From a virus, in IMG/VR virus record IMGVR_UViG_3300034060_001688, positions 1 to 33,742 of that record: 33,742 bases of DNA; one strand, 5' to 3'. The notes below the pieces were generated by a model that had not been told where the DNA came from, did no database searches, and saw nothing but the letters and a program-made list of their open reading frames with translations. Both the position numbers and the translations under genes were made by a program. Position 1 is the first letter of the stretch. Each line of letters starts with the position of its first letter. This document shows positions 18,213 to 33,345 of this stretch, one piece after another.

Positions 18213-18427
18213 CATTTGCCGGTCCAGCGTGCAAACGCGCGCCGCAGGGCATAGCTGCGCAAGAGCGAGATCGCCACGAATGCACCGCCAATCGCCAAGT
18301 TATCGCCGAGACTGACCTGCAACCCAAACCATGGAAACACAACAATCTGCGTCACCACTGCCAGTGCGTATCCCAAGACTACGTTGGTCACGGCTTCGAT
18401 GAGCGAAAGGCGACGCGATTGGGTCAT
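18212..18427 (-). CDS. DUF7220-like small membrane protein
   Basis: This 71 aa protein begins MTQSRRLSLIEAVTNVVLGY. It has two hydrophobic stretches: about 12-33 (VTNVVLGYALAVVTQIVVF) and about 42-58 (DNLAIGGAFVAISLLR), consistent with two inner-membrane helices, and a basic C-terminus. It matches the DUF7220 pattern. ATG 18427 overlaps the methyltransferase stop as ATGA. The longer frame reaching 18670 is the antisense of the methyltransferase and is not used. Function is unknown. Confidence 0.78.
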   Translation of the reverse strand: MTQSRRLSLIEAVTNVVLGYALAVVTQIVVFPWFGLQVSLGDNLAIGGAFVAISLLRSYALRRAFARWTGK

Positions 18428-19692
18428 GCAGCCAACCGCTGTGACTTGAGGGCTGCAAAGGTCTCGCCGCTGTCCAGCAAGACTGCCTCCTCGCCTGTGA
18501 AGGCCTGCCAGCGCTCGATGGCCACATCTACGTAGACCGGGTTCAGCTCCACCCCGTAGCACAGGCGGCCAGTCGTCTCGGCTGCGATCAGCGTGGTGCC
18601 GGAGCCCATGAAGGGCTCGTAGACAGCCTGGCCAGGGCTCGAGTTGTTCAAGATCGGACGGCGCATGCATTCCACCGGCTTTTGCGTGCCGTGCACGGTG
18701 GTCGCGTCCTGGTCCTTGTTGGCAATCGGCCAGAGGGTCGTCTGCTTGCGATCACCCGCCCAGTGGCCTTTGCCTTTGGCCCTCACAGCATACCAACAGG
18801 GCTCGTGCTGCCAGTGATAATCGCCGCGGCTCAGCACCAGCCGATCCTTGGCCCAGATGATCTGCGACCGGATCGCGAAGCCGGCGGCGATCAGGCTGTC
18901 CGCAACCGTGGCCGCGTGTAAGGCGCCATGCCAGATATAGGCGACATCACCGGGAAAGAGCGACCAGGCCTCGCGCCAGTCCGCGCGGTCGTCATTTAGT
19001 ACCTTGCCCGTGCGTTTGGTTTTTGCTGCTCCGGCTTGGTTGCGCCAGGATGGATCGTATTCCACGCCATAGGGCGGGTCAGTCACCATCAGCAGCGGCT
19101 TCACGCCACCAAGCAGTCTTCCAACAACATCTGCGCTGGTGCTGTCCCCGCAGATCAACCGATGCGAACCCAGCTGCCAGAGGTCACCCGCCACCGACAC
19201 AGGGGTTACCGGGGGCTCGGGGATGTCGTCCTCGCCTTCTGTCGCCCCGCCGTTCGCGTCATCGCCACCTTGCGCCGCATTCAGCAGCCCTTCCAGGAAC
19301 GCATCTGAGAAGCCCAGGAGGTCCGTGTCAAAGCCCAGCGCCTGAAGGTCGATCACTTCCAGACCCAGATTGAGCTCATCCCACTCCGCCATATCTGCGA
19401 CGCTGTTGTCCGACAGGCGCAGAGCGCGGCGATGATCCTCATCGAGATGCGACAGCCGAAGGACAGGGATCTTGCTCAGGCCAAGCTGCGTCGCCGCCAA
19501 GATGCGGCCGTGGCCAGCGATCAACTCACCGTCGTCTGAGATCAGGCATGGCATGGTCCAGCCGAACTTGACCATGTTGGCTGCCAAGACCGCGATCTGA
19601 TTGTCGCTGTGTAAGCGCGCATTGCGGGCATAGGGCCGCAAGCGTTCGATCGGCCAGAGTTCAATCTGGCTCGGCATGAATGGGAGATCCAT
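18424..19692 (-). CDS. ParB-like domain fused to beta-class DNA methyltransferase
   Basis: Read from ATG 19692 the protein is 422 aa. Residues 10-115 form a ParB/sulfiredoxin-like domain with GELIAGHGRILAATQLG around 56-72. The methyltransferase follows: motif IV DPPYG at about 205-209, and motif I FMGSGTT at about 361-367, the IV-before-I order of N4/N6-type (beta) enzymes. It probably protects phage DNA from host restriction or affects gene expression; its target sequence cannot be told from here. ATG 19677 is a good alternative start; neither has a strong ribosome site. No cognate restriction enzyme is seen, so it appears to be an orphan enzyme. Confidence 0.88.
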   Translation of the reverse strand: MDLPFMPSQIELWPIERLRPYARNARLHSDNQIAVLAANMVKFGWTMPCLISDDGELIAGHGRILAATQLGLSKIPVLRLSHLDEDHRRALRLSDNSVADMAEWDELNLGLEVIDLQALGFDTDLLGFSDAFLEGLLNAAQGGDDANGGATEGEDDIPEPPVTPVSVAGDLWQLGSHRLICGDSTSADVVGRLLGGVKPLLMVTDPPYGVEYDPSWRNQAGAAKTKRTGKVLNDDRADWREAWSLFPGDVAYIWHGALHAATVADSLIAAGFAIRSQIIWAKDRLVLSRGDYHWQHEPCWYAVRAKGKGHWAGDRKQTTLWPIANKDQDATTVHGTQKPVECMRRPILNNSSPGQAVYEPFMGSGTTLIAAETTGRLCYGVELNPVYVDVAIERWQAFTGEEAVLLDSGETFAALKSQRLAA

Positions 19693-19770
19693 AGGGCAGG
19701 GCTCGCATGGGCGTGCGCAATGTCCTGTGGCCGCGCTCAGGCGCCAGGTTTTGCGATCCACGATGTCAGG

Positions 19771-20147: not shown

Positions 20148-20819
20148 TCACGCCCGACGCGGATCGCTCTCGAGCAATTCTGACGTGCCGTTGATCTTGG
20201 CCATCCAGTCCGCGGTCTCGTTGTTCCGCCACCTAACAATCGTGTCCATTCTCCCAAGGTCAGCCCGAAGGTCTCGAGAGAAGATTGGTTCATGATGCGC
20301 GATACGATTTCGTAGCTCGCGGACTTCATTCACGTGCGAGTAGACTTCGTTCCTGAGAGCACTGGCTTGGCGGTTTGTCGGCGCGTTGGGGAAAACGGTA
20401 GCAAAGTGCTGGTTCCAGATTCGCCCATCGTGACGTTTCGTCAGCATGCGCTCCCAGAAAACGAACTTCAGGTCGGCGATGATCTTACCCGATGTCGCGT
20501 GCTTGCCGCCGAGGACAGTCAGATCGCGCTGGGGGCTGTAATTCGGGGGCGTTGGGTTGGGCAGGGAGCGCAAGAAACCTGCGGACCAGGGCCACGTCCC
20601 GCCGTGAACGGTCTCGATGGCCTCAACCACGGCGTTGCGAAGGGTGACCTCCACGATGTGCAGCGGGACCATCAGAGCAGCAGAAATCTTGAGATTCCAG
20701 AGGTATAGCCGAAGAGCATCTTCGCGATTATTGTCGCTTGTCTGAAGGTACGTCGCAAATCTTGGTGCAGACAGCACGTTTGGAAGATGGTGCAACTCCC
20801 CTGGAGAGAACTCATACAT
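20148..20819 (-). CDS. Abi-type HEPN-domain protein (Abi_2-like)
   Basis: This 223 aa protein is read from ATG 20819 (GTG 20846 is an alternative; neither has a strong ribosome site). It begins MYEFSPGELHHLPNVLSAPR, has ALMVPLHIVEVTLRNAVVEA in the middle, and shows RELRNRIAHHEPIF near residues 164-177, the R-x4-6-H motif of HEPN ribonucleases. The whole is similar to Abi_2/AbiD-F type abortive-infection proteins. Such proteins halt the cell when a second phage infects. The gene stands alone between two candidate terminators, with AT content slightly above its neighbours, and is a probable superinfection-exclusion moron. Confidence 0.78.
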   Translation of the reverse strand: MYEFSPGELHHLPNVLSAPRFATYLQTSDNNREDALRLYLWNLKISAALMVPLHIVEVTLRNAVVEAIETVHGGTWPWSAGFLRSLPNPTPPNYSPQRDLTVLGGKHATSGKIIADLKFVFWERMLTKRHDGRIWNQHFATVFPNAPTNRQASALRNEVYSHVNEVRELRNRIAHHEPIFSRDLRADLGRMDTIVRWRNNETADWMAKINGTSELLESDPRRA

Positions 20820-20901
20820 CTTGACAAGCCTGCTCTGACGGGCCACCTAAGAAGGGAGCTTTGAGAATGCGGCTTCGGCTCCCCTCATGGCAGAACGAAT
20901 G

Positions 20902-21056: not shown

Positions 21057-21752
21057 TCACGGCGGTGTTGCGGAGCCGGACCGGTTGATCCACGGTTCAG
21101 CCTTTGGCATCCGATTGATCAGCTCAACATCTCTTAACATTCCGCCAGCCAGCAGCCCTTCCCGTACCGAGTCCAGCGCCCGCCACCAGTCTCTGTACGC
21201 CCGCCGCGCCGCCTCGATCTGCTGCGGATGTGGCGAGAACGTCACCGGGCACGCCAGCACCTCCACCGTTCGCCACTTCCCGCGCGACAGCACGCGCTCG
21301 GTCCCGACCACGGTGGTGGTGGCCCGCTCCCCATGCTGGTTGCGCTTTACTTCTACCGGTACACATCTTGGCGTCGCCCCCGGCATCCAGTCCGGCGTCA
21401 GCGCAGCGCGGGCGAGCTCGGCAACCCGGATTGCCATGCGCTTGCCTCCGAGGCTGTCTGGCATTCCGGCAACGGTTGCCGCGATGACCTCGGCGTCCTC
21501 ATGTGTGTAGCTGCCGATCTTGTACTGGCCGCCATCCACCTTGCAGCCGAGAACTGCGCGTTGGAGCAGAACGTATTCGAGGCCAAAGCCAAACCCGTGC
21601 TCTCGCTCGGGATCGGGCGGCTCCGGCAACTCAAGCTGGGCGTGCTCGACCCGGAATGCCCATTCCAGTGCCTGCTGAACCGACATGGACCGCTTTGGGC
21701 GCCCCGACCCAAGATGCCCTGTGCGGGACTGCAAACTACGATCGTGTTTCAT
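21057..21752 (-). CDS. Unknown protein in replication block
   Basis: This 231 aa protein begins MKHDRSLQSRTGHLGSGRPK, a basic start, then RSMSVQQALEWAFRVEHAQL. The C-terminal half contains QIEAARRAYRDWWRALDSVR, likely helical. I know similar proteins only as phage hypotheticals of Rhodobacterales that follow replication genes. ATG 21752 overlaps the stop of the O-like gene, so they are co-translated. There is no P-loop, so it is not a DnaC/P-type helicase loader by that criterion. It is last in the block before the hairpin at 20902. Confidence 0.65.
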   Translation of the reverse strand: MKHDRSLQSRTGHLGSGRPKRSMSVQQALEWAFRVEHAQLELPEPPDPEREHGFGFGLEYVLLQRAVLGCKVDGGQYKIGSYTHEDAEVIAATVAGMPDSLGGKRMAIRVAELARAALTPDWMPGATPRCVPVEVKRNQHGERATTTVVGTERVLSRGKWRTVEVLACPVTFSPHPQQIEAARRAYRDWWRALDSVREGLLAGGMLRDVELINRMPKAEPWINRSGSATPP

Positions 21753-22759
21753 CGGATGCCCCGCTCACGGAGGCGCTCCGCTGTCACGAGACCACGGGCA
21801 AGCATTGCGTCGCGCATGGAATTCGAGATCGCACTCACCGGTAAGTAGCGATCGGAGTTGACCATCTCGGCATAGAAGACCGGCAGATCCGTGATTGGTC
21901 GGGGTTCCTGCGCCGTGGCCGTCTTTGCCTTGCGTCGTTTTAGCGAGGCCGCATCCGCCTTGCGCTGGGCGGCGCGCTGCATAACACGGTCCAGCGCTTT
22001 TGGCCCATCGGGGGGCTCGGGATGTTCGTGCCGTGACGCCTCTGCCGCCTCGAGGATTTCAGCCTCGCTCAGCCCGAGGTCAGTCTGCCAGCGCCGAACA
22101 TGTTCACGCGGCGGCCAGCCTTGCCACCAGCCGGGCAGGGGCCCGTTGGGGTCAAAGCCCAGCGCTGAGAGCAGCGATCCGAAAAACTCCTCATCGAGGC
22201 CGTCACGCGCGCCCGCGCCCTCCTCCTCCTTTACTGGTTTACTTACTGGTTCTCTTACAAGGTTACTGTCCGGATTTCGGACACGGCTCGGGGCATTTTC
22301 CGGACACGGCTTGGAGGCAAAATCGGACACGGCTCCGCGTCCGGTTTCCGGACACGGGGGCTGGCTATCCACCGGCGAACTGGCAGTTTCGGCAGCGTTT
22401 TCGGGGATCGCGAAGGTCAGGTCGTCTTGCACGTTGTCGCCATGTCCGGTTTCCGGACACGGGGCCCCCTGATTTTGCGTAAAGCCTGGCTCGAAGGCCA
22501 AGATGTAGCGGGTCGGCATCTGTCGCTTGTTGCCGGGATTGAGACGCTGCACGCGACGGATCAGGCCTGATGCCTCGAGCAGGGCCAGATGCTCGTTCAG
22601 CGTCGATCGGCTAATCTCGCAGTCCTCGGCCAGCTGCTCTTGGGAGGGGAAGCAGCCGAAATCGGGATTGAACCGATCGCAGAGATGCCAAAGCACGATC
22701 TTGGTCGTGGGTTTCAGCCCGCGCTGCTGGATGGCCCAGTTGGTGGCGGCATGGCTCAT
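21749..22759 (-). CDS. Winged-helix replication protein (lambda O-like layout)
   Basis: This 336 aa protein begins MSHAATNWAIQQRGLKPTTK, a winged-helix domain (residues 5-95) with FPSQEQLAEDCEISRSTLNE as recognition region. Residues 95-175 are low-complexity with CPETG-type repeats and coincide with DNA repeats. The C-terminal half holds GWPPREHVRRWQTDLGLSEA and a basic helix. Phage replication initiators such as lambda O share this arrangement: N-terminal DNA-binding domain, origin within the gene, C-terminal partner-binding part. The gene overlaps its VRR-NUC neighbour by four bases. Function is inferred from layout. Confidence 0.72.
   Translation of the reverse strand: MSHAATNWAIQQRGLKPTTKIVLWHLCDRFNPDFGCFPSQEQLAEDCEISRSTLNEHLALLEASGLIRRVQRLNPGNKRQMPTRYILAFEPGFTQNQGAPCPETGHGDNVQDDLTFAIPENAAETASSPVDSQPPCPETGRGAVSDFASKPCPENAPSRVRNPDSNLVREPVSKPVKEEEGAGARDGLDEEFFGSLLSALGFDPNGPLPGWWQGWPPREHVRRWQTDLGLSEAEILEAAEASRHEHPEPPDGPKALDRVMQRAAQRKADAASLKRRKAKTATAQEPRPITDLPVFYAEMVNSDRYLPVSAISNSMRDAMLARGLVTAERLRERGIR
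22231..22462 (-). repeat. Candidate replication origin: iteron-like palindromes plus AT-rich 9-mers inside the O-like gene
   Basis: CGGACACGG occurs at 22278, 22301, 22324, 22349 and 22454. The first four are 23, 23 and 25 bases apart, near two helical turns. Three copies sit in a fuller palindrome, GTCCGG(N3-5)CCGGAC-like. TTACTGGTT is repeated at 22231 and 22243, in an AT-richer tract next to the array. The core is translated in three different reading frames in the O-like protein (P-C-P, R-V-R, A-V-S), so conservation must act on DNA. This resembles lambda ori with iterons beside an AT-rich region. Confidence 0.6.
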
Positions 22760-23151
22760 GGCGCAGGCCTCCTCACCGGAGGCGCCACACGCGTGGTGAA
22801 GCCATGATCCGCCAAGGCGCCCAGCGCATCGTCCAGTGATCGTACCAGTGCCCAGCCAAAGCCCTGCGCGGTCACCGCATCACGAAACGCCTCCTGCGCT
22901 TGGCTCAGCCGACCCTTCAAGGACTTCAGCTCGAGGAACAGCACGCGCCCAGCGCAGAGCACCATCAGATCGGCGAAGCCAGGATGGACACCCATCCCTA
23001 CGAGGATCGCTTGCCGCTTGGCGCCGCGCGGGCCGGCTTCGGTGATCTCGTTCGGGCAATGGTGAATGATCGCGCCTTTGGGCAGCGCGAAACGCAGCGC
23101 CGTGACCACAGCGCGCTGCAGATCCGCTTCGGGTGTGCCACGGCGCTTCAT
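22756..23151 (-). CDS. VRR-NUC domain nuclease
   Basis: This 131 aa protein begins MKRRGTPEADLQRAVVTALR. The PD-(D/E)XK core is seen in HPGFADLMVLCAGRVLFLEL followed by KSLKGRLSQAQEAF: Asp in FADLM, Glu and Lys in LELKS, and the downstream QAQ. VRR-NUC proteins in phages are structure-specific or Holliday-junction-type nucleases that help process replicating DNA. It is a stand-alone VRR-NUC of typical size. It overlaps the O-like gene (ATGA), and its own start overlaps the previous stop, so it is within the replication operon. Confidence 0.85.
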   Translation of the reverse strand: MKRRGTPEADLQRAVVTALRFALPKGAIIHHCPNEITEAGPRGAKRQAILVGMGVHPGFADLMVLCAGRVLFLELKSLKGRLSQAQEAFRDAVTAQGFGWALVRSLDDALGALADHGFTTRVAPPVRRPAP

Positions 23152-23417
23152 CGGTGGCCCTCCCGTTCGGGTCGATCACGGTCCACTCGCCCGGGCGACT
23201 TCGCATCGAGGACGACAAGCAGGATCCGGGCGTCCTCGCGCTCTTCGGGCGTTTCGCCATGCTGGACCAGGACATTGCAGGCCAGCCTGATCAGGTGATC
23301 GGAATGGTTCACGACATCGGCCACGACGATGCGTGCCTCGCGCCGTCGATCATCGATCCATTCCTGGCGCACATGGTCGCGGCGGCTTTTCTGGCGGAAG
23401 GGCAGGGGGATGCTCAT
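23148..23417 (-). CDS. Small unknown basic protein
   Basis: This 89 aa protein begins MSIPLPFRQKSRRDHVRQEW and is rich in Arg and Asp. ILLVVLDAKSPGRVDRDRPE is near the end. It is coupled to the VRR-NUC gene at 23148-23151 and to the HTH gene at 23414-23417. No fold is recognised. It might be a nucleic-acid-binding partner on charge alone. Confidence 0.6.
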   Translation of the reverse strand: MSIPLPFRQKSRRDHVRQEWIDDRRREARIVVADVVNHSDHLIRLACNVLVQHGETPEEREDARILLVVLDAKSPGRVDRDRPEREGHR

Positions 23418-23680
23418 CGATGTCCACCCGAACGCGCACGCCGCGGCTCACGCACCTCTTGGGCTTCCAGCCAGTCGAGGACGGCTGTCCTGCGATAGAG
23501 GATCTTTCGTCCCGCTTTCACGAAGGCCGGTCCGCGCCGGGCATCGGCCCAGCGCCGAAGGGTTTCCTCGCACACCCCAAGTTCCTGGGCGAGGTCGGTG
23601 CGGCTGATCCAGCCCTGCAACAGCGCGCCTTCGTTTCCCCTTGTCTTCGGGGCCTCAGCGCTCGTTTCAAGTTGCGTCAT
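23414..23680 (-). CDS. Excisionase-like helix-turn-helix protein
   Basis: Read from ATG 23680 (GGGAG nine bases upstream) the protein is 88 aa. The frame continues upward to 23737 without a ribosome site. Residues 22-78 are a MerR/excisionase HTH: ISRTDLAQELGVCEETLRRW, then ADARRGPAFVKAGRKILYRR and TAVLDWLEAQE. Such proteins serve as Xis or as early regulators. It is first in the leftward early operon, next to a repeat-rich gap and the integrase 600 bases away, which suits a recombination directionality factor. Confidence 0.78.
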   Translation of the reverse strand: MTQLETSAEAPKTRGNEGALLQGWISRTDLAQELGVCEETLRRWADARRGPAFVKAGRKILYRRTAVLDWLEAQEVREPRRARSGGHR

Positions 23681-24285
23681 CTGTGTTCTCCCGATTGTCG
23701 CCCGCAGTGGGCGAATGTCGTGAGCCAGCAGAAGCACAGACGCAGGGGTGGCAGGGTGGCAGTGACCGGCAGTGAGATTGCGGTCGCCGCCACCCCCCGT
23801 GCCACCCCTTGTTTTATTGATCGAGTCGAAATCTTCGCTGCGTCGCAGCGCGATTTGCAGGCTTTACAAACCCGACGGCCCACCACCCGCGATGTCGCAG
23901 ACAAGCCCGATCGACGGAATTTCCGCTTATTCGTCAACATTGGCCAGATTTCGGCGACATTCAGGGGTGGCAATGGGTGGCAGTGACCGGCAGTGGCGTG
24001 CCGCTTACCGTGCCGGTCCCTGATTTTCTTGAGAAATCGATGCGCGACGCGTCCGAGATCGAGTGTTGAAGCGCGAGTGATGTTTTCAACGGAAGCAGTT
24101 TTGGCAGGCTCGGCGCGCTAACCGTCCCAAAAGGCAGCGGCATGTGGGTGGCAGCGAGGCGGCACAGGGGTGGCACGCCATGCAGGGTCATTGCCGGTCG
24201 CTGCCACCCTGCCGGTCAGAGCGCCATGATTACCTTGATAGACCCGCGAATCTACGCGTCATGAACGGGGAAAGGAGGTGCGTCG
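23681..24285. repeat. Non-coding control region with GGGTGGCA repeat array
   Basis: No gene is supported in these 605 bases. GGGTGGCA occurs directly at 23746, 23754, 23965, 23975, 24146 and 24168, and inverted (TGCCACCC) at 23800 and 24202. A 21-base unit starting GGGTGGCAGTGACCGGCAGT is exact at 23754-23774 and 23975-23995. A 7 bp palindrome CGCTGCG-T-CGCAGCG lies at 23836-23850. The region separates the excisionase-like gene from the integrase. Integrase arm sites, an operator set or an origin are possible; the copies come in three clusters of two or three, as arm-type sites often do. Confidence 0.6.
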
Positions 24286-25545
24286 ATGCCAACACGAGAA
24301 CGCCTAACAGAGAAACTGGTGCGGGATGCCATCCCCGCCGAAGGACGCGATTACCAGATCTTCGATGACGACATCCGCGGCTTTGCGGTCTGCATCTATC
24401 GAGGAGGTGGCCGCGCCTTCACCTTCGACTATCGCGTGGCTGGACGACAGCGCCGGATGACTTTCGGGCGCTGGCCGGAATGGACCGTGACAGCTGCGCG
24501 CGACCGCGCGCGCGCCCTGCGGCGTGAGGTTGACCTTGGTGGTGACCCGCTTGGCGACCGTGATCAGATCCGCGAGGCGGCGCGCGTCAATGACTTGATC
24601 GATCGCTATCTCAAGGAGCACTGCGTCCGGCTCGCACCAACGAACGCGTCCGACCAGAAATCCATGATGATGAAACTGGTCGCGCCGCACTGGGGCAAGA
24701 AGCTCGTCACGGAAATCACCAAGGCCGATGTCGAGAAGCTCCTCGCGAAGGTCGCGGAGGGCAGGGCGCGGCCCCACAAGGAAAAGCCAAACAATCGCGC
24801 CCGCAAGCTTCAACCCGCGCGACCCACGCCGGTGCGGGCAAATCGCTTGGGGGAGGCGTTGCGCAAGATGTTCAACCTTGCTGTCGAGTGGGAGATGCGC
24901 GCCGACAATCCGGCCAGCAGCTTCTATCGTCGGATCGAGAATGCCCGCGAACGCTTCCTGACCAAGGAGGAGATCGATCGGCTGGCCAAGGCGCTGGAGT
25001 CCGATGAGGATCAGCGTGCCGCGGGCATTATCCGGATGTGCCTCTTGACCGGTGCTCGCGTTGGCGAGGTCCGCCAGTCGCGCTTTGAACAGTTCAACCT
25101 TGAACTCGGCATCTGGGCCAAGCCAGCGGCGACCACCAAGCAGCGCAAGGTCCACCGCGTGCCGATCTCGGACGAGGTCGCGGCGATTGTGCGCCAGCGC
25201 CAGTTGCTGGTGCCAAAGGGCAATCCCTGGCTTTTCCCTGGCGATGTGCCGGGGCAGCCCGTGAAGGAAATCCGACGGTTCTGGCGCCGCATTCAAGCGG
25301 AAGCCGGGATTGGTGACGCACGGATCCACGACCTTCGTCACACCTTTGCCTCGCTCCTCGTCAGCGGCGGGGCGTCGCTCGAGATGATCGGCAAGCTCTT
25401 GGGGCACACCCAAATGCAGACGACGCAGCGATACGCCCATCTGCTCGACGCCCCGCTGCGGGCGGGGCTCGATGCCGTGGCCAGTGCAGTCCGCCCACGG
25501 CTGACGATTGTGCAGAACGAACGGGTCGACCGTAAGTCAGCATGA
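24286..25545 (+). CDS. int: Tyrosine-type integrase (site-specific recombinase) with Arm-DNA-binding N-terminus
   Basis: This 419 aa protein is full length for a prophage integrase. Residues 1-90 are the arm-binding domain (DUF4102-like, FDDDIRGFAVCIYRGGG). The core-binding part follows. Catalytic residues appear in order: Arg in LLTGARVGEVRQ, Lys near TKQRKVHRVPIS, His-x-x-Arg in RIHDLRHTFASLLVS, His in LLGHTQMQTTQRYAHL with the nucleophile Tyr. AAAGGAGGTG (24271-24280) lies a few bases before ATG 24286. It would carry out integration at tRNA-fMet, whose 3' half is repeated at 32402-32448. It is separated from that site by 6.9 kb of cargo. Confidence 0.95.
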   Translation: MPTRERLTEKLVRDAIPAEGRDYQIFDDDIRGFAVCIYRGGGRAFTFDYRVAGRQRRMTFGRWPEWTVTAARDRARALRREVDLGGDPLGDRDQIREAARVNDLIDRYLKEHCVRLAPTNASDQKSMMMKLVAPHWGKKLVTEITKADVEKLLAKVAEGRARPHKEKPNNRARKLQPARPTPVRANRLGEALRKMFNLAVEWEMRADNPASSFYRRIENARERFLTKEEIDRLAKALESDEDQRAAGIIRMCLLTGARVGEVRQSRFEQFNLELGIWAKPAATTKQRKVHRVPISDEVAAIVRQRQLLVPKGNPWLFPGDVPGQPVKEIRRFWRRIQAEAGIGDARIHDLRHTFASLLVSGGASLEMIGKLLGHTQMQTTQRYAHLLDAPLRAGLDAVASAVRPRLTIVQNERVDRKSA

Positions 25546-27060: not shown

Positions 27061-27219
27061 GCTTGCTCCTTTTCTGATGCATGTGCCGCCCGCGCAAACG
27101 ACCGGCACCGTGTTCTTTGGAGTGCAAGCGGCCGTCAGCATTCCCCGGAGCCGATTCCGACTCGCTTGCGAAGCGATCCTGCACTAGCGTGGGCGTAAGA
27201 ACGCGACGTGGAGCCCCCT
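27061..27219. promoter_or_regulatory. Divergent control region with inverted repeats
   Basis: This gap serves both the 201 aa HTH-like gene and the WYL operon. It has TCGCTT-GCG-AAGCGA (27162-27176), a clean 6 bp palindrome with a three-base centre, about 45 bases before the WYL start. AGTGCA (27121-27126) and TGCACT (27180-27185) form a second, wider pair around it. This is a likely operator for an autoregulating WYL protein. No confident -35/-10 pair was identified. Confidence 0.5.
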
Positions 27220-28212
27220 ATGGCCTTCCGAAAAGCACAGGAACTTATCCGGCTGGCTGAGATGGCCGGCTCGCGATACCGCGGCGTGTGTCTGAACGAC
27301 GTCAGTGACGCCTTCGGGGTCAATCAGCGGACTGCCCAGCGCATGATGCGCGAGTTCGAGGAGGCTTTCCCGTCCTACATCTGCTCAACCGACAGCGATC
27401 GACGCCGCTGGTGGAAGCTGAGCGACACGACCTTAATGCACATGCAAGGTGTTCGCGCGAGCGAGCTTTCTGCCCTCGATATGGCCATTAAGCGCGCGCA
27501 GCACGAAGGCGCCGTCATGGATGTGCGGGGGCTGGTTTCTCTGCGCGATCGCTTGTTGGCCAGCATGCCGTCCATCCATGCACGCAAAACGGAGACCGAC
27601 GCTGCCGCGATCCTGGAGGCGCAAGGATTGGCATGCCGCCCTGGGCCGAAGGCAAAGCTTGCGCCCAACATCCTCGGGGCCATCGCCGAGGGTATCAAGG
27701 CGCCGTTCTCGATGGATATTGTCTATCAGGCCGCCCGAGATCCCGAGCCGCGTGTGCGGAAGGTTGAGCCCTACGGACTTCTGCTGGGGACGCGGCAGTA
27801 TCTGATTGCCCGGGACATCGAGAATGGCCGTGCCTATCGACGTTACCGCATGGATCGGATCACCAGCGCCAAGATCACGGGTCAATCCTTCGCCAGGGAT
27901 CCCGACTTCGACCTCGACGCCTTCGCTGTCCAGGCCTTCGGATCATACCATTCGGACGACGAGTACGGGCGCGTCGTGTGGAGGTTTGCACCCAGCGCCG
28001 CCGCTGTCGCGCGGGAGTTCGAATTCCATCCGACGCAGACAGCGACCGAAGAGCCTGATGGCGGCCTTCGCATCGAGTTCATGGCCTCGGGGTGGATCGA
28101 AATGATCTGGCATCTCTACCAGTGGGGGGATCAGGTCGAGGTCGTCGAGCCCGACGCCCTACGAGCGATGGTCCAAGGGTTTCAGCGGGCTGATTTGAGG
28201 GTGCTGCCATGA
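27220..28212 (+). CDS. WYL-domain transcriptional regulator of the defence operon
   Basis: From ATG 27220 (GGAG seven bases upstream; a GTG at 27208 is less likely) the protein is 330 aa. Residues 1-65 are a winged HTH with LNDVSDAFGVNQRTAQRMMR. Residues about 155-230 form the WYL domain with VEPYGLLLGTRQYLIARDIE and RYRMDRITSAKITG; the C-terminal WCX-like part includes ASGWIEMIWHLYQWGDQVEV. WYL regulators of the BrxR/CapW kind repress phage defence operons and respond to ligand. The stop lies 19 bases before the OLD nuclease start on the same strand, so it is likely the first gene of the operon. Confidence 0.88.
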   Translation: MAFRKAQELIRLAEMAGSRYRGVCLNDVSDAFGVNQRTAQRMMREFEEAFPSYICSTDSDRRRWWKLSDTTLMHMQGVRASELSALDMAIKRAQHEGAVMDVRGLVSLRDRLLASMPSIHARKTETDAAAILEAQGLACRPGPKAKLAPNILGAIAEGIKAPFSMDIVYQAARDPEPRVRKVEPYGLLLGTRQYLIARDIENGRAYRRYRMDRITSAKITGQSFARDPDFDLDAFAVQAFGSYHSDDEYGRVVWRFAPSAAAVAREFEFHPTQTATEEPDGGLRIEFMASGWIEMIWHLYQWGDQVEVVEPDALRAMVQGFQRADLRVLP

Positions 28213-28231: not shown

Positions 28232-30220
28232 ATGAAGATCGACACGCTCACGATAAAGAACTTCCGCTGCTTCGGTCCTGAGCCTGAAACTCTGTCGCTC
28301 GAATCTGGCGTCACAGCAATGGTCGGCGGAAACGGGGCTGGAAAGACGGCAGGATTGCAAGCGCTCGCGCGGCTCTTCGGCGTTTCTTCAGCGCAGCGGC
28401 AGATCCAGAAGCGCGATTTCCATCTTCGGCCCGGGGAGACCGAGCTCGTCTCTGGAGCCACGCTCGCCATCGAGTGCGTTCTGTCTTTCCCGGAGTTGGA
28501 CGGTCGAGATGATGACGTAGTTGCCGATTCTGTACCTGATTTCTTCAACCATATGGCGGCGACCGGTCCTGGCGAGCCGCTGAAGGCTCGGATACGGCTG
28601 CAGGCGACTTGGACTGATGATGGAACGCCGGACGGCACGGTCGAAGAAGACATTCGATGGATTGGCACGCTCGACAATCACTACGTTTGGGACGAATGCC
28701 AACGCGTCGCCGCTGTCGATAGAGGCACCATCCAACTCGTCTATGTGCCGGCAACGCGCAATCCGGCAGATCGAGTCACTGACTTGCTAAAAGGGCGGCT
28801 ATGGCGCGCTGCCAAATGGTCGGACCGCATGTCTAAAACGACCGAGCGCGGTGCGAAGCTGATCCAGAAGCGCTTCGAGCGCGAAGGGCCTTCGGAATTC
28901 ATCGTTGAGCGTCTCACGAAACGCTGGCAACAGGTCCATGAAGCAGACACCGATACCACGCCGGTTCTAAGGCTGGTGGAAAGCAGGCTCGAAGCACTCG
29001 TCAGGAACGTCGAATTTGCATTCCTTCCTGATGAGGCAGGCCGTGAACGGGCGCTTGCCGATCTGAGCGACGGTCAGCGGTCCCTGTTTCATATTGCTCT
29101 GACTGCTGCGACACTCGAAACTGAAAGGGATTCTTTGCGTCTGGTCGCTCCAGACAGCCCCTTCGACCAGGAGAAGCTTCGTCGCGCTCATCTCACGATC
29201 CTGGCGATCGAAGAGCCGGAGAACAGCCTGTCGCCATTCTTCCTGTCACGCATTATGAACCAGGCACGCGATATCGCGGCACTAGAATCGGCTCAGGTAC
29301 TGATCTCGAGCCACAGCGCCAGTATTCTGAGCCGCATCGAACCCGATGAGGTACGATACTTCAGGCTTGACAGGAACAGTAGGTCTTCATCAGTCAAGTC
29401 ACTGACCTTGCCCGAAGATGCTACCGAGGCCGGCAAGTATGTACGGCTTGCCGTGCGAGCTTACCCCGAACTGTACTTCGCGCGGTTCGTCATTCTCGGA
29501 GAAGGGGACTCCGAACGAATCGTGCTGCCACTTCTCGCCGACGCTATGGGCATACCTCTCGATCCGTCCTTCGTGCCTGTTGTGCCGTTAGGCGGGCGCC
29601 ATGTTGAACATTTTTGGCGGCTGCTGGACGCGCTGCAGATACCGCACGCAACGCTGCTCGATCTTGATCTCGGACGTGCGCACGGCGGAGCGAACATGAT
29701 CAGGTCCACCGTCAACGCGCTGGCCTCCATAGGAAACGATCTGAGCGACAATTTCGATGCCTTGATGGGCGATATCGATCTCAACGAGCTTTCCGCACTC
29801 TCCGACGAAGAGATGACTGATGGCTTTACAGATAATAATTGGATGCAAGCGCTCAAAGACGAAGGCGTCTTCTTTTCCGATCCACTTGATCTGGACTTCG
29901 CGATGTTCGCAGCCTTTCCGGATGCCTACAAGGTGCTGGAAGCCGGCGCACGCGGCCCCGACAACAGCGAAGAAGCTCTGAAAGGGAAGAAGGCGGCCAC
30001 TCTTAAAAAAGGGGGGAATGCAGATCTCTACTCACCTGATTGGGATGAGTGTTTCGTCTGGTATCCCTATCTTTTCTTGAACCGTAGCAAGCCCGAAACG
30101 CATCTTGCCGCGCTTAGTCGCATCCCGGCCGCCGATCTTGCCGCGAATGCGCCCGCAGAACTCCGCGCGTTGATCGCGAATGTCAAAAGCAAACTTGGTC
30201 TCGACGGCGGCGGGTCGTGA
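28232..30220 (+). CDS. OLD-family ATPase/TOPRIM nuclease, Gabija GajA-like
   Basis: This 662 aa protein begins MKIDTLTIKNFRCFGPEPET. ATPase motifs are complete: Walker A GGNGAGKT (32-39), signature LSDGQRS (278-284), Walker B LAIEEPE (324-330), H-loop SSHS (359-362). The TOPRIM part has EGDSE (424-428) and DLDLGR (477-482). The order ATPase then TOPRIM, and a neighbouring UvrD helicase, defines class 2 OLD nucleases, which includes GajA of the Gabija system. Gabija GajA is usually nearer 580 aa, so this one carries about 80 extra residues. It overlaps the helicase by TGATG. In known Gabija, GajA nicks DNA when nucleotides fall; that this one does so is inferred. Confidence 0.85.
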   Translation: MKIDTLTIKNFRCFGPEPETLSLESGVTAMVGGNGAGKTAGLQALARLFGVSSAQRQIQKRDFHLRPGETELVSGATLAIECVLSFPELDGRDDDVVADSVPDFFNHMAATGPGEPLKARIRLQATWTDDGTPDGTVEEDIRWIGTLDNHYVWDECQRVAAVDRGTIQLVYVPATRNPADRVTDLLKGRLWRAAKWSDRMSKTTERGAKLIQKRFEREGPSEFIVERLTKRWQQVHEADTDTTPVLRLVESRLEALVRNVEFAFLPDEAGRERALADLSDGQRSLFHIALTAATLETERDSLRLVAPDSPFDQEKLRRAHLTILAIEEPENSLSPFFLSRIMNQARDIAALESAQVLISSHSASILSRIEPDEVRYFRLDRNSRSSSVKSLTLPEDATEAGKYVRLAVRAYPELYFARFVILGEGDSERIVLPLLADAMGIPLDPSFVPVVPLGGRHVEHFWRLLDALQIPHATLLDLDLGRAHGGANMIRSTVNALASIGNDLSDNFDALMGDIDLNELSALSDEEMTDGFTDNNWMQALKDEGVFFSDPLDLDFAMFAAFPDAYKVLEAGARGPDNSEEALKGKKAATLKKGGNADLYSPDWDECFVWYPYLFLNRSKPETHLAALSRIPAADLAANAPAELRALIANVKSKLGLDGGGS

Positions 30221-32091
30221 TGCCGGCGGATCCCGAAGACTGGCTTCCGCAGGGCGTAGCCGACCTAGAACCGGGTGCGTGGCAGGCGCTGCGCGAGACC
30301 GGTAGAAGCGTTTGCCTTACCGCTGGGGCGGGCGCAGGGAAGACAGAATTTCTTGCACAGAAAGCGGCCTACCTTCTGCAGGCCGGAATTTGTCCGCCGC
30401 CCAAGCGCATCTTGGCCATCAGCTTCAAACGAGATGCCGCGCAGACTCTCATGTCGCGCGTAGGAAAGCGCTGCCCGCCCGATCAGGCGCGTCGCTTCAA
30501 CTCGGTCACTTTCGATGCTTTTACGAAAGGCATGCTAGATCGCTTTCGGGCTGCAGTACCGCAGCCATTTAGACCACCTGCTGACTATGAGATCGGCTTT
30601 CCGCGGCGCAACGATCTGGAGAATTTTCTCACGCGTCACGACCGGGGCGCGATCGGACCGCAGAAGCTGGAAATGGCGATTGCCCGTGCGCCTCTGCCAT
30701 TCGACGCAGAAGGCATTTCACCAGCGTGGCGCGAGCTCCTGAACGCCTACTGGCAAGAACAGTATGGGCGTCCGGCCGGGGCGTTGCTGTCGTTTGCCAT
30801 GATCAACAGGCTGGTCAATTATCTACTGCGCGAGAACCCAGCGGTACGGCGTGCTTTGCAGCTAACCTATCCCTTCGTATTCCTCGACGAGTTCCAGGAC
30901 ACGACCCACGCACAGTACGATCTAGTGAAGACCGCGTTTCACGGTAGCGATGCAGTGTTCACCGCAGTCGGAGATGACAAGCAGCGGATCATGGGCTGGG
31001 CCGGGGCGATGGACAACGCGTTCCAAGAGTTCGCAGCCGACTTTAACGCCGTAAATCTTGCGCTTCGCTTCAACTGGCGCTCCCACGCCGATTTGGTCGC
31101 TATTCAGCAGGTAATTGCGCAGCGTATCGATCCGGATGCAGACGAGGTCGAAGCCAAAGGGCAGTGCGCTGTCGACGGTCAGGTGGCCGCTCTGTGGCGC
31201 TTCGATACGCGGGAGCAAGAAGCGCAGCAGATTGCAGCCTGGATTGCGAACGAAGTGGAGAATGGCAGGGTCGAACCGCACGATTGCGCGATCTTAGTAC
31301 GTATGCGCGCTGATTACGTTGAAGCCGAGCTTGCCGAAGTCTTCGCCACAGAGGGGCTAACGATCAGGAACCTCGCGCGCAATGTCGGCGAGATTGCGCT
31401 TCAGGAACTGCTTGCCGAAGAGATAACCGATGTCATCCTGCCCCTTTTGAGGCTCGGGACAGGGAAGCGGAGCCCAGGTTCTTGGAACGCAGCGCAAGAA
31501 GAGCTGCAGGCGCTCTTCGCAATTGATCCCGATGACGAACGAGCGCAGGAAGGTCTACAGCGGAGCATTGAGGAATTCTCCTCTTCTTTACGGACAGCCA
31601 TGCGCGATAACGAACCGACAGGCGATAGCGCGGCGGAGATTTTTCGGATTGCACTGAAATTCGTTGGTGCCGATCGGCTGCGCCAAGCCTTTCCGGCTTA
31701 TCGACGCGAAGCGGACTTCGAGCGGGTAAGGAGGGGGTTCATCACCTTGCTTTCCGAATGTAGCGAGGCTGCGGACACTTGGTGCGACGCTCTCGATCGC
31801 TTCGAAGGCATAGGCCAAGTGCCTTTGATGACGATCCATAAGAGCAAAGGCCTTGAGTTTCATACCATAATTTTCTTCGGCCTTGATATGCAGACCTGGT
31901 GGAGCCTTTCGCCCGGTCGGGAAGAGGAGCTTAACTCCTTCTTCGTGGCGTTTACCCGCGCTATGCAAAGAGCCTTCTTTTCCTATTGCAGGGAGCGTGG
32001 ACAAGCCATTGTTTGGCTCGAGAACGTGCTTTTGCCTGCGGGCTTGGATCGGGTCGATGGGCTCACCCCTTGCTCGGTCGAACCTGAGTAG
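30220..32091 (+). CDS. UvrD/PcrA-type superfamily 1 helicase, Gabija GajB-like
   Basis: From ATG 30220 (GTG 30217 is an in-frame alternative) the protein is 623 aa. SF1A motifs are present: Walker A AGAGAGKTE (35-43), motif II LDEFQDTT (222-229), motif III VGDDKQRIMGWAGA (250-263), LRFNWRSH, then MTIHKSKGLEFHTIIFFGLD and FFVAFTRAMQRAFFSYC towards the end. This makes it an active-looking DNA helicase. GajB proteins are of this type and activate or complete GajA action. It is about 120 aa longer than commonly cited GajB. TGATG overlap with the nuclease gene implies paired translation. Confidence 0.85.
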   Translation: MPADPEDWLPQGVADLEPGAWQALRETGRSVCLTAGAGAGKTEFLAQKAAYLLQAGICPPPKRILAISFKRDAAQTLMSRVGKRCPPDQARRFNSVTFDAFTKGMLDRFRAAVPQPFRPPADYEIGFPRRNDLENFLTRHDRGAIGPQKLEMAIARAPLPFDAEGISPAWRELLNAYWQEQYGRPAGALLSFAMINRLVNYLLRENPAVRRALQLTYPFVFLDEFQDTTHAQYDLVKTAFHGSDAVFTAVGDDKQRIMGWAGAMDNAFQEFAADFNAVNLALRFNWRSHADLVAIQQVIAQRIDPDADEVEAKGQCAVDGQVAALWRFDTREQEAQQIAAWIANEVENGRVEPHDCAILVRMRADYVEAELAEVFATEGLTIRNLARNVGEIALQELLAEEITDVILPLLRLGTGKRSPGSWNAAQEELQALFAIDPDDERAQEGLQRSIEEFSSSLRTAMRDNEPTGDSAAEIFRIALKFVGADRLRQAFPAYRREADFERVRRGFITLLSECSEAADTWCDALDRFEGIGQVPLMTIHKSKGLEFHTIIFFGLDMQTWWSLSPGREEELNSFFVAFTRAMQRAFFSYCRERGQAIVWLENVLLPAGLDRVDGLTPCSVEPE

Positions 32092-32528: not shown

Positions 32529-33152
32529 TCAACGTTTATTGAATGCTTGACCGCCCGCCTTGCGCAGGTAATTCTCGGCAGCCGCAATGAAGGTGGCGCA
32601 CGTATCCCGGCTGACTGTCGGCAATTCCTGCAGTTGCACATCCAGCGGCGAGCGTTCTGGCCAGAAATAGGGGGCCTTGGTGTCTGGGTGGATCCCGAAA
32701 CCCACGAACTGCTGCCCGGTTGCCAGCACCTCGACCCGTGCCACGGTGCCATCCAGCATCTGGAATTCGCTGGTCTGCACCTTGTCGAAGGGCACATCGG
32801 TGCGGACGGCCAGCAGGATCTTCGGCGCGCGCCCGATGCGGCACAAAGGTGAAGGCCCCAGCATATCGCTGGCCATGCCGGTCAGTCGGCTTGCATGGCC
32901 GGCGTCGAGCACATCGATGTCAATGCCGATCAGGGTGCCGCAGAGCAGGCCGGTATTGGTGCAGTTGCGTTGGGCGTTGGTCCAGCGGGTGATTTCGGCC
33001 TCGTCGGCCGTCGCGCAGACGGCCTCCCAGGATTTCATGGCTGGACGCTTTCCGGCGGCCTTCGTGGCCACATTCGGACCAAGGACGGGGACGGGGCGAT
33101 AGGCGTTGCGATGGAGGGTCAGGCGCAGGTCGGTGCAGGAAAAGGTCGAGGT
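32529..33152 (-). pseudogene. Truncated bifunctional primase-polymerase (prim-pol) domain
   Basis: This minus-strand frame holds LHRNAYRPVPVLGPNVATKA, then AAGKRPAMKSWEAVC, and later GLLCGTLIGIDIDVLDAGHA and RIGRAPKILLAVRTDVPFDK. They match the prim-pol domain found at the N-terminus of phage and plasmid primases, with the metal Asp pair in GIDIDV. The domain ends at RKAGGQAFNKR and a stop, with no helicase half. The frame continues upstream to ATG 33254, but those 30-odd residues are antisense to an integrase fragment. The original start is lost. It is a remnant from another mobile element beyond attR. Confidence 0.65.
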
Positions 33153-33156
33153 GACG

Positions 33157-33345
33157 ATGCGCTGGCATGATCTGCGCCACTTCGCCGTGTCGCTCTGGAT
33201 CGAGCAGGGGTTCTCGATCAAGGAGGTGATGACCTTCGCGGGCCATTCCTCCATCCAGATGACGATGGAACGGTATGGGCATCTGTTCCCCTCGCCAGAT
33301 CACCAAAAGGCCATGGCCATGGTGGAGGCAAAGCTGCTGGGGTGA
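33157..33345 (+). pseudogene. C-terminal fragment of a second tyrosine integrase
   Basis: The 62 residues beginning MRWHDLRHFAVSLWIEQGFS carry the HxLR catalytic motif, then GHSSIQMTMERYGHLFP with the second His and the nucleophile Tyr. It matches the last third of a tyrosine recombinase different from the intact integrase at 24286. No arm or core-binding domain is present. The frame is open upstream (to 33106), but that is antisense to the prim-pol remnant. The junction is at about 33150, suggesting that two deleted elements were joined. Confidence 0.78.

Follow-up and report, generated by a model that had tools for sequence, protein, structure and literature searches.

The 33,742-base IMG/VR virus record IMGVR_UViG_3300034060_001688, analysed here at its full length and called the window, carries on its minus strand a gene for an O-like initiator of 336 residues (21749-22759), in the middle of which lies an array of short repeats. 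At the level of sequence, this array is constrained as DNA and co-varies with exactly the N-terminal domain (NTD) of the protein encoded around it, and the region is read below as a probable replication origin. The initial annotation had called an O-like winged-helix gene, in agreement with the matches of the protein to PHROG 345, PHROG 391 (the second match, E 1.8e-18) and Pfam HTH_36; the protein itself also matches phrog_186, 'DnaD-like helicase loader' (E 2.8e-6). The gene and its parts are as follows.

21749..22759, minus strand: O-like replication initiator (P0001), PHROG 345 'replication initiation O-like' (E 1.7e-23), Pfam HTH_36 (E 5.8e-15)
22469..22759, minus strand: N-terminal winged-helix DNA-binding domain, residues 1-97, with recognition helix 51-63 and wing 71-83 (AlphaFold2; predicted local distance difference test score, pLDDT, mostly 91-97)
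22205..22465, minus strand: predicted disordered linker, about residues 99-185, encoded by the putative origin (AlphaFold2 pLDDT under 50 at 99-147, 155-169 and 175-185)
22440..22462, minus strand: iteron 1 (distal), palindrome CCGTGTCCG-N5-CGGACATGG, inverted second half clear
22335..22357, minus strand: iteron 2, CCGTGTCCG-N5-CGGACGCGG, inverted second half clear
22310..22332, minus strand: iteron 3, half-site CCGTGTCCG with AT-rich tail, position kept in relatives
22287..22309, minus strand: iteron 4, half-site CCGTGTCCG with AT-rich tail, position kept in relatives
22264..22286, minus strand: iteron 5 (terminal), CCGTGTCCG-N5-CGGACAG, inverted second half clear
22221..22265, minus strand: candidate AT-rich unwinding element, 65% AT peak, AACC..GTAAG-type 12/13-mers fixed (consensus over 158 genes)
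21752..22198, minus strand: C-terminal helical domain (CTD), about residues 188-336, the constant partner of binding cassettes that appear to be exchanged

Exact CGGACACGG occurs five times in the whole window, each time on the plus strand and within the initiator gene (22278, 22301, 22324, 22349 and 22454), a number never reached in 100 shuffles (mean 0.50, maximum 2). The start-to-start distances are 23, 23, 25 and 105. On the coding strand the repeat reads CCGTGTCCG and lies at gene offsets 297, 402, 427, 450 and 473, that is, in frames 0, 0, 1, 0 and 2, where it encodes PCP, PCP, AVS, PCP and RVR, respectively. Directly after the last copy comes the AT-richest 40-mer of the gene (22230-22269; 65% AT vs 38% for the window average), which is equalled in AT-richness by only 0.36% of all window 40-mers, and copies of TTACTGGTT start at 22231 and 22243. 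Five copies, four of them at a spacing of 23-25 bases, translated in three frames as PCP three times and RVR and AVS once each, with two 9-mers and an AT-richer tract adjacent, had all been described beforehand, and each of these points stands. The palindromic contexts given in the same description hold for iterons 1, 2 and 5, while the two middle ones are half-sites; the extent given, 22231-22462, was rightly placed but slightly small, the true one being about 22205-22465.

Relatives of the gene came from IMG/VR (69), from GTDB genomes (the best 80 of 279 confirmed stretches) and from further loci; together they represent 163 distinct gene sequences, and the AT-rich anchor is present in 158. 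Genome searches gave matches in 5 of 385 genomes at the class level and in 71 of 394 at the family level, and one GTDB locus (L070), in a Rhodobacterales metagenome-assembled genome (MAG), encodes a protein 100% identical to the window initiator. The repeat step, just ahead of the conserved AT-rich element, is exactly 23 bp in 157 of the 158 anchored relatives, and the three register positions fall in frames 2, 0 and 1 in all 158. Codon choice is equally strict in the 116 genes whose iteron is of the same class as in the window (class A): TGT is fixed in 116/116, vs 13.5% of Cys codons elsewhere in the same genes, as are CGT (6.3% elsewhere), GTA (2.6%) and AGG/AGA (3.9%), and ACT is used at 103 of 103 threonines, vs 2.6% elsewhere. 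Rare codons (GTA, AGA/AGG, CTA/TTA and ACT) are also fixed in the AT-rich element, so that the constraint spans the iterons and the AT-rich element AACCnTGTAAGnGAACCnnTAAGTAAACCAGTAAAGGAGGAGGAG. The conserved entity at the array is thus DNA rather than peptide, as the initial annotation had proposed from the window alone, and register, spacing and fixed rare codons in the relatives bear this out.

The iterons of a gene change in concert and fall into class A, CCGTGTCCG (116 genes), class B, mostly CCATCTCCG (26), class C, CCGTGTCTC (14), and class D, CCGTGTCCA (2); the second half of iteron 5 also varies with class. Further iterons, CCGTGTGTC, CCATGTCTC, CCGTGTCCC, CCGTCTCCA and CCGTGTGCA, come from distant relatives whose C-terminal domains differ. 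For comparison with the protein, iterons were aligned in one shared register, set from only bases 1, 2 and 6, and 196 of 258 gene records were used, the 62 dropped being short or without anchor (31), scoring under 18 of 30 (27) or lacking the CC...T register (4). In these 196 genes, R51 is found with G5 in 160/160 and I, V or N51 with C5 in 36/36; likewise, Q, H or V80 accompanies G3 in 160/160 and R or K80 accompanies A3 in 36/36. Residue 56 goes with base 9, as R56-C9 (24/24), N56-A9 (12/15) and D/E/A/V/L56-G9 (152/153). When 400 residue-base pairs were scanned in 38 representatives with NTD identity under 85%, the same three pairs ranked highest (51-5, z 18.4; 80-3, z 14.1; 56-9, z 12.7). 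The structural model places residues 51 and 56 on the recognition helix and residue 80 in the wing. By the geometry of the 9-5-9 palindrome, the distance from the centre would be about 5 bp for base 7 and about 9 bp for base 3, which fits a winged-helix dimer that inserts its helices into adjacent major grooves and places its wings outside.

As a control for linkage, the co-variation was compared with that of neighbouring regions in 152 genes. For bases 5 and 3, the best NTD columns left 0 exceptions, compared with 20 for the best CTD columns, 21 for the upstream VRR-NUC gene and 24 with no information; for base 9, the figures were 2, 10, 10 and 15. Plain linkage was rejected as the cause, since the CTD and the upstream neighbour hold little information. 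Within this set, NTD columns 49, 51, 73, 80 and 82 are equally perfect, and it is only the wider set that singles out 51 and 80. Eleven of the dropped records were judged to have iterons, namely L170, L171, L324, L517, L519, L521, L522, L534 and L548, which stood outside the scan yet were not blind to the wing rule, and L518 and L524. All 11 agree with the rules for residues 51 and 80 (A51 of L534 being counted as non-R); at residue 56, six agree, and L517-L519 carry the ambiguous T56 with A9. Motifs in L281, L319, L328-330, L532 and L551 were judged not comparable, and the remaining dropped records showed other repeats or none.

Bases 7-8 seem, from the sequences, to depend jointly on residues 52, 53 and 56: among L322, L520, L514 and L522, helices with S52 S53 R56 pair with GTC at bases 7-9, and R52 pairs with GCA. 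Other in-gene repeats (CCGTCGGCAA, ACACCGGACA, AACCGGAC, AAAATTTACA and CCGTGTCAG), some at 23 bp and some not, occur in L315, L439, L320, L173, L440-L445 and L319.

Repeats inside the gene, constraint on the DNA and a match between repeats and binding domain were all found, as in the general kind of origin that lies within the gene of a winged-helix initiator. The data from the relatives make it very likely, with a probability of about 0.9, that a temperate Rhodobacterales phage has its replication origin in this region, within the gene that encodes its own initiator. Through its N-terminal winged helix, the O-like protein would bind the CCGTGTCCG iterons, spaced by 23 bp, probably as a dimer on the symmetric ones, with residues 51 and 56 of the recognition helix reading bases 5 and 9, respectively, and residue 80 of the wing reading base 3. 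Filling of the array in helical register would then strain the adjacent AT-rich element until it opens, and the CTD would recruit a helicase or primase of the host, or its replisome. Alphaproteobacteria use DciA. We infer these steps of binding, melting, helicase recruitment and origin firing from what is described for lambda (PMC5043065, PMC6022878) and for pSK41 Rep (PMC5703833). dnaC/dnaI is described as not representative of bacteria in PMC5109545, where DciA is presented.

Several observations weigh against this reading or against the base rules. The base-9 rule is broken by D56 with A9 in L514, by N56 with G9 in three genes and, among the dropped records, by L522 and L534 (V or A56 with A9), and T56 is split between G9 (two genes) and A9 (two genes). 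The fourth-ranked pair by mutual information, residue 31 with base 7 (z 12.3), is without obvious contact meaning. Independent switches on the NTD tree are few (five changes at base 3, two at base 5 and five to C at base 9), and only one or two independent pairs sit on well-supported branches, which is below the reach of a sign test. Two of the five window iterons, the middle ones, are half-sites, and middle half-sites occur in the relatives too. Finally, no P- or DnaC-like loader was found at E <= 0.01 in the 30 scanned open reading frames of the window, a record that may be a fragment. Together with the different downstream genes in relatives, this suggests that the locus is not a complete lambda O-P module.

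Iterons can also have control functions. The array might be a true binding array with only an accessory, incompatibility or copy-control role, replication actually starting elsewhere; the chance that the record is a fragment favours this. We regard it as improbable, since the AT-rich element adjoins the array in the order of the lambda ori (PMC7466680), no other array was found, though the whole window was not scanned for other origins, and cumulative GC skew is lowest at 22-24 kb, which in a fragment is weak evidence. Slightly less probable again is that the repeats are operators, bound by the winged helix-turn-helix protein to control transcription of its own operon and not to start replication. 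Such domains are found mostly in transcription regulators, the structural matches of this one include SlyA/MarR, and co-variation with the domain indicates recognition, not its purpose. However, the sites begin about 300 bp past the start codon, the conserved AT-rich element with its fixed rare codons always follows the array, and the PHROG matches are replication initiators; an autoregulatory operator was rejected, as no copy of the repeat lies outside the gene in the window. A ParB-like/DNA methyltransferase fusion (18424-19761) is encoded 2 kb away, and the repeats could be its centromere-like or methylase-directing site, but this is very improbable, because at bases 3 and 5 the iteron class tracks residues of the O-like domain with no exception. 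That protein-level selection on a repeated linker peptide (PCPETGHG and similar) produced the DNA repeats as a side effect is scarcely credible: although linker peptides are alike among relatives, the use of three reading frames and the fixation of rare synonymous codons led to the rejection of a protein repeat as the cause, the linker is predicted to be disordered, and the residues with which the bases co-vary lie at a distance of some 20-110 codons.

On the CTD tree, iteron class changes 33 times, close to the random expectation (mean 40.0 and minimum 35 in 100 shuffles); on an NTD tree built without helix-turn-helix residues 41-61, it changes only 4 times (100 shuffles: mean 32.9, minimum 27). 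In five cross-class pairs with similar CTDs, the DNA is 68-71% identical over the NTD, 55-69% over the iterons, 84-100% over the AT-rich element and 89-93% further on, and in a same-class pair the corresponding values are 93, 80, 96 and 91%. The identity profile and the class changes on the trees suggest that binding domain and iterons are exchanged together, the boundary being close to the AT-rich element. Seven O-like genes, of which three have class-A and four class-B iterons, occur in one MAG (G001), which may mix strains. On balance, we lean towards a modular initiator-origin code (wing residue 80 with base 3, helix residue 51 with base 5, and helix residue 56 together with 52 with bases 8-9) carried on an exchangeable cassette next to a constant unwinding element and CTD, which would create new origin-specificity groups able to coexist in one host. 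If so, the protein and DNA partners would stay matched, both being one stretch of one gene. In L515, an initiator of the class-C helix type, the frame enters transposase-like sequence after the binding domain, and no iterons remain.

Origins within initiator genes are already known. The lambda ori consists of iterons in the middle of gene O and an AT-rich tract (PMC7466680, PMC5043065), and the likeness in layout, with a different sequence, that the initial annotation had noted agrees with these descriptions. Lambda O and the O proteins of Shiga toxin (Stx) phages, whose origins have 4 or 6 iterons, share with the window initiator an N-terminal binding domain, mid-gene iterons, an adjacent AT-rich tract and a linker joining two domains; their iterons are inverted repeats (PMC7466680, PMC5043065, PMC6022878), a form that three of the five window iterons show. 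Unlike lambda, the present family has another iteron sequence, a strict 23-bp step in the relatives and two half-sites in the window, and the gene downstream is phrog_9306 or a C5-methyltransferase in the relatives, not P. Reps of the pSK41 type have four Rep boxes centrally in rep, a central linker encoded by the ori and a winged helix-turn-helix NTD, and the CTD of pSK41 Rep contacts host DnaG; in the chimera plasmid pPR9, an exchanged pfam13730 (HTH_36) NTD stands on a CTD of >97% identity (PMC5703833). A central array whose sequence encodes the linker is the layout of the window gene too. These plasmids (RepA_N) differ from the present element, which belongs to a phage of Alphaproteobacteria, in their boxes and CTD, and in the Pfam scan of the initiator RepA_N was not listed at E <= 0.01 (HTH_36 was instead), though the fold is similar. 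In geminivirus Rep, residue-base pairs with iterons were likewise identified comparatively, according to the title of a reference cited in PMC12548392, but that protein is an unrelated rolling-circle Rep with iterons upstream of its gene.

By VIA-align, the N-terminal domain matches 4pt7 ('Structure of initiator') and 4pql with Z 9.1 over 79 aligned residues, many unrelated winged helices being ranked as high as the Rep domain. Foldseek with the model gave nothing at E <= 0.001, with 5kbj among the entries listed; 4pt7, 4pql and 5kbj are staphylococcal plasmid Reps. A PDB sequence search gave weak matches only, the best being MarR/SlyA-like and all at E 0.05 or above. The low-confidence stretch of the AlphaFold2 model nearly coincides with the part encoded by the putative origin.

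Closer to the window, homologous genes occur in the Rhodobacter capsulatus phages RcKemmy and RcHotPocket (cluster RcC) and in Labrenzia phage vB_LagS-V1 (42.3%, 39.9% and 51.4% identity, respectively), and cluster RcC phages and vB_LagS-V1 bear in-gene repeats of other classes (CCGACTCCG; CCGTGTCTC). The main text of the paper on RcC phages (PMC8601537) contains the word 'iteron' 0 times. Among the literature matches listed, which leave subscription papers largely uncovered and so do not show absence from print, neither a specificity code nor an origin was recognised for the O-like family. With in-gene origins known from lambda and pSK41 and an HTH_36 NTD swap from pPR9, the window is a further case and not a new kind. 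Among the matches listed, no description was recognised of a natural residue-base code with its putative wing contact, or of the large family that displays it.

Joint change of specificity in an initiator and its origin is hard to study when the two are separate; here they are one stretch of DNA, with several natural classes and three residue-base links open to simple binding assays. The array also indicates where the origin would lie in many Rhodobacterales prophages and phages that have lacked annotation until now, and it supplies these bacteria with candidate compatible replicons.

On the left of the initiator gene lie genes for terminase, portal, head and tail proteins, and on the right one for an integrase. 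A VRR-NUC-like gene (22756-23151, minus strand) overlaps the initiator gene by 4 bp, and a VRR-NUC homologue lies upstream with an equal 4-bp overlap in 155 of 161 relatives. The gene downstream in the window (21057-21752, minus strand) is phrog_9306-like; among 154 relatives, this position is taken by a phrog_9306-like cluster (52, window included) or a C5-methyltransferase-like cluster (82), and the calls in 11 further relatives are apparently out of frame. Cumulative GC skew has its minimum (-0.46) at 22001-24000, a weak sign of an origin in a record that may be a fragment. The fusion at 18424-19761 (minus strand) joins a ParB-like N-terminal region to a DNA methyltransferase (phrog_498, E 8.3e-142).

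An open reading frame at 20148-20846 (minus strand) has Abi_2/HEPN and PD-T4-5-like similarity and may be a second defence gene, in the phage early region. To the right of the integrase (24286-25545) lies a Gabija-like pair (28232-32091, plus strand, with 27208-28212) that matches GajA (PADLOC E 2.1e-240) and GajB (E 3.1e-211) and follows a WYL-type protein. Also beyond the integrase, at the right-hand edge, 32529-33254 (minus strand) encodes a primase-like protein (phrog_1156, E 3.8e-26), perhaps of another element or of the host flank.
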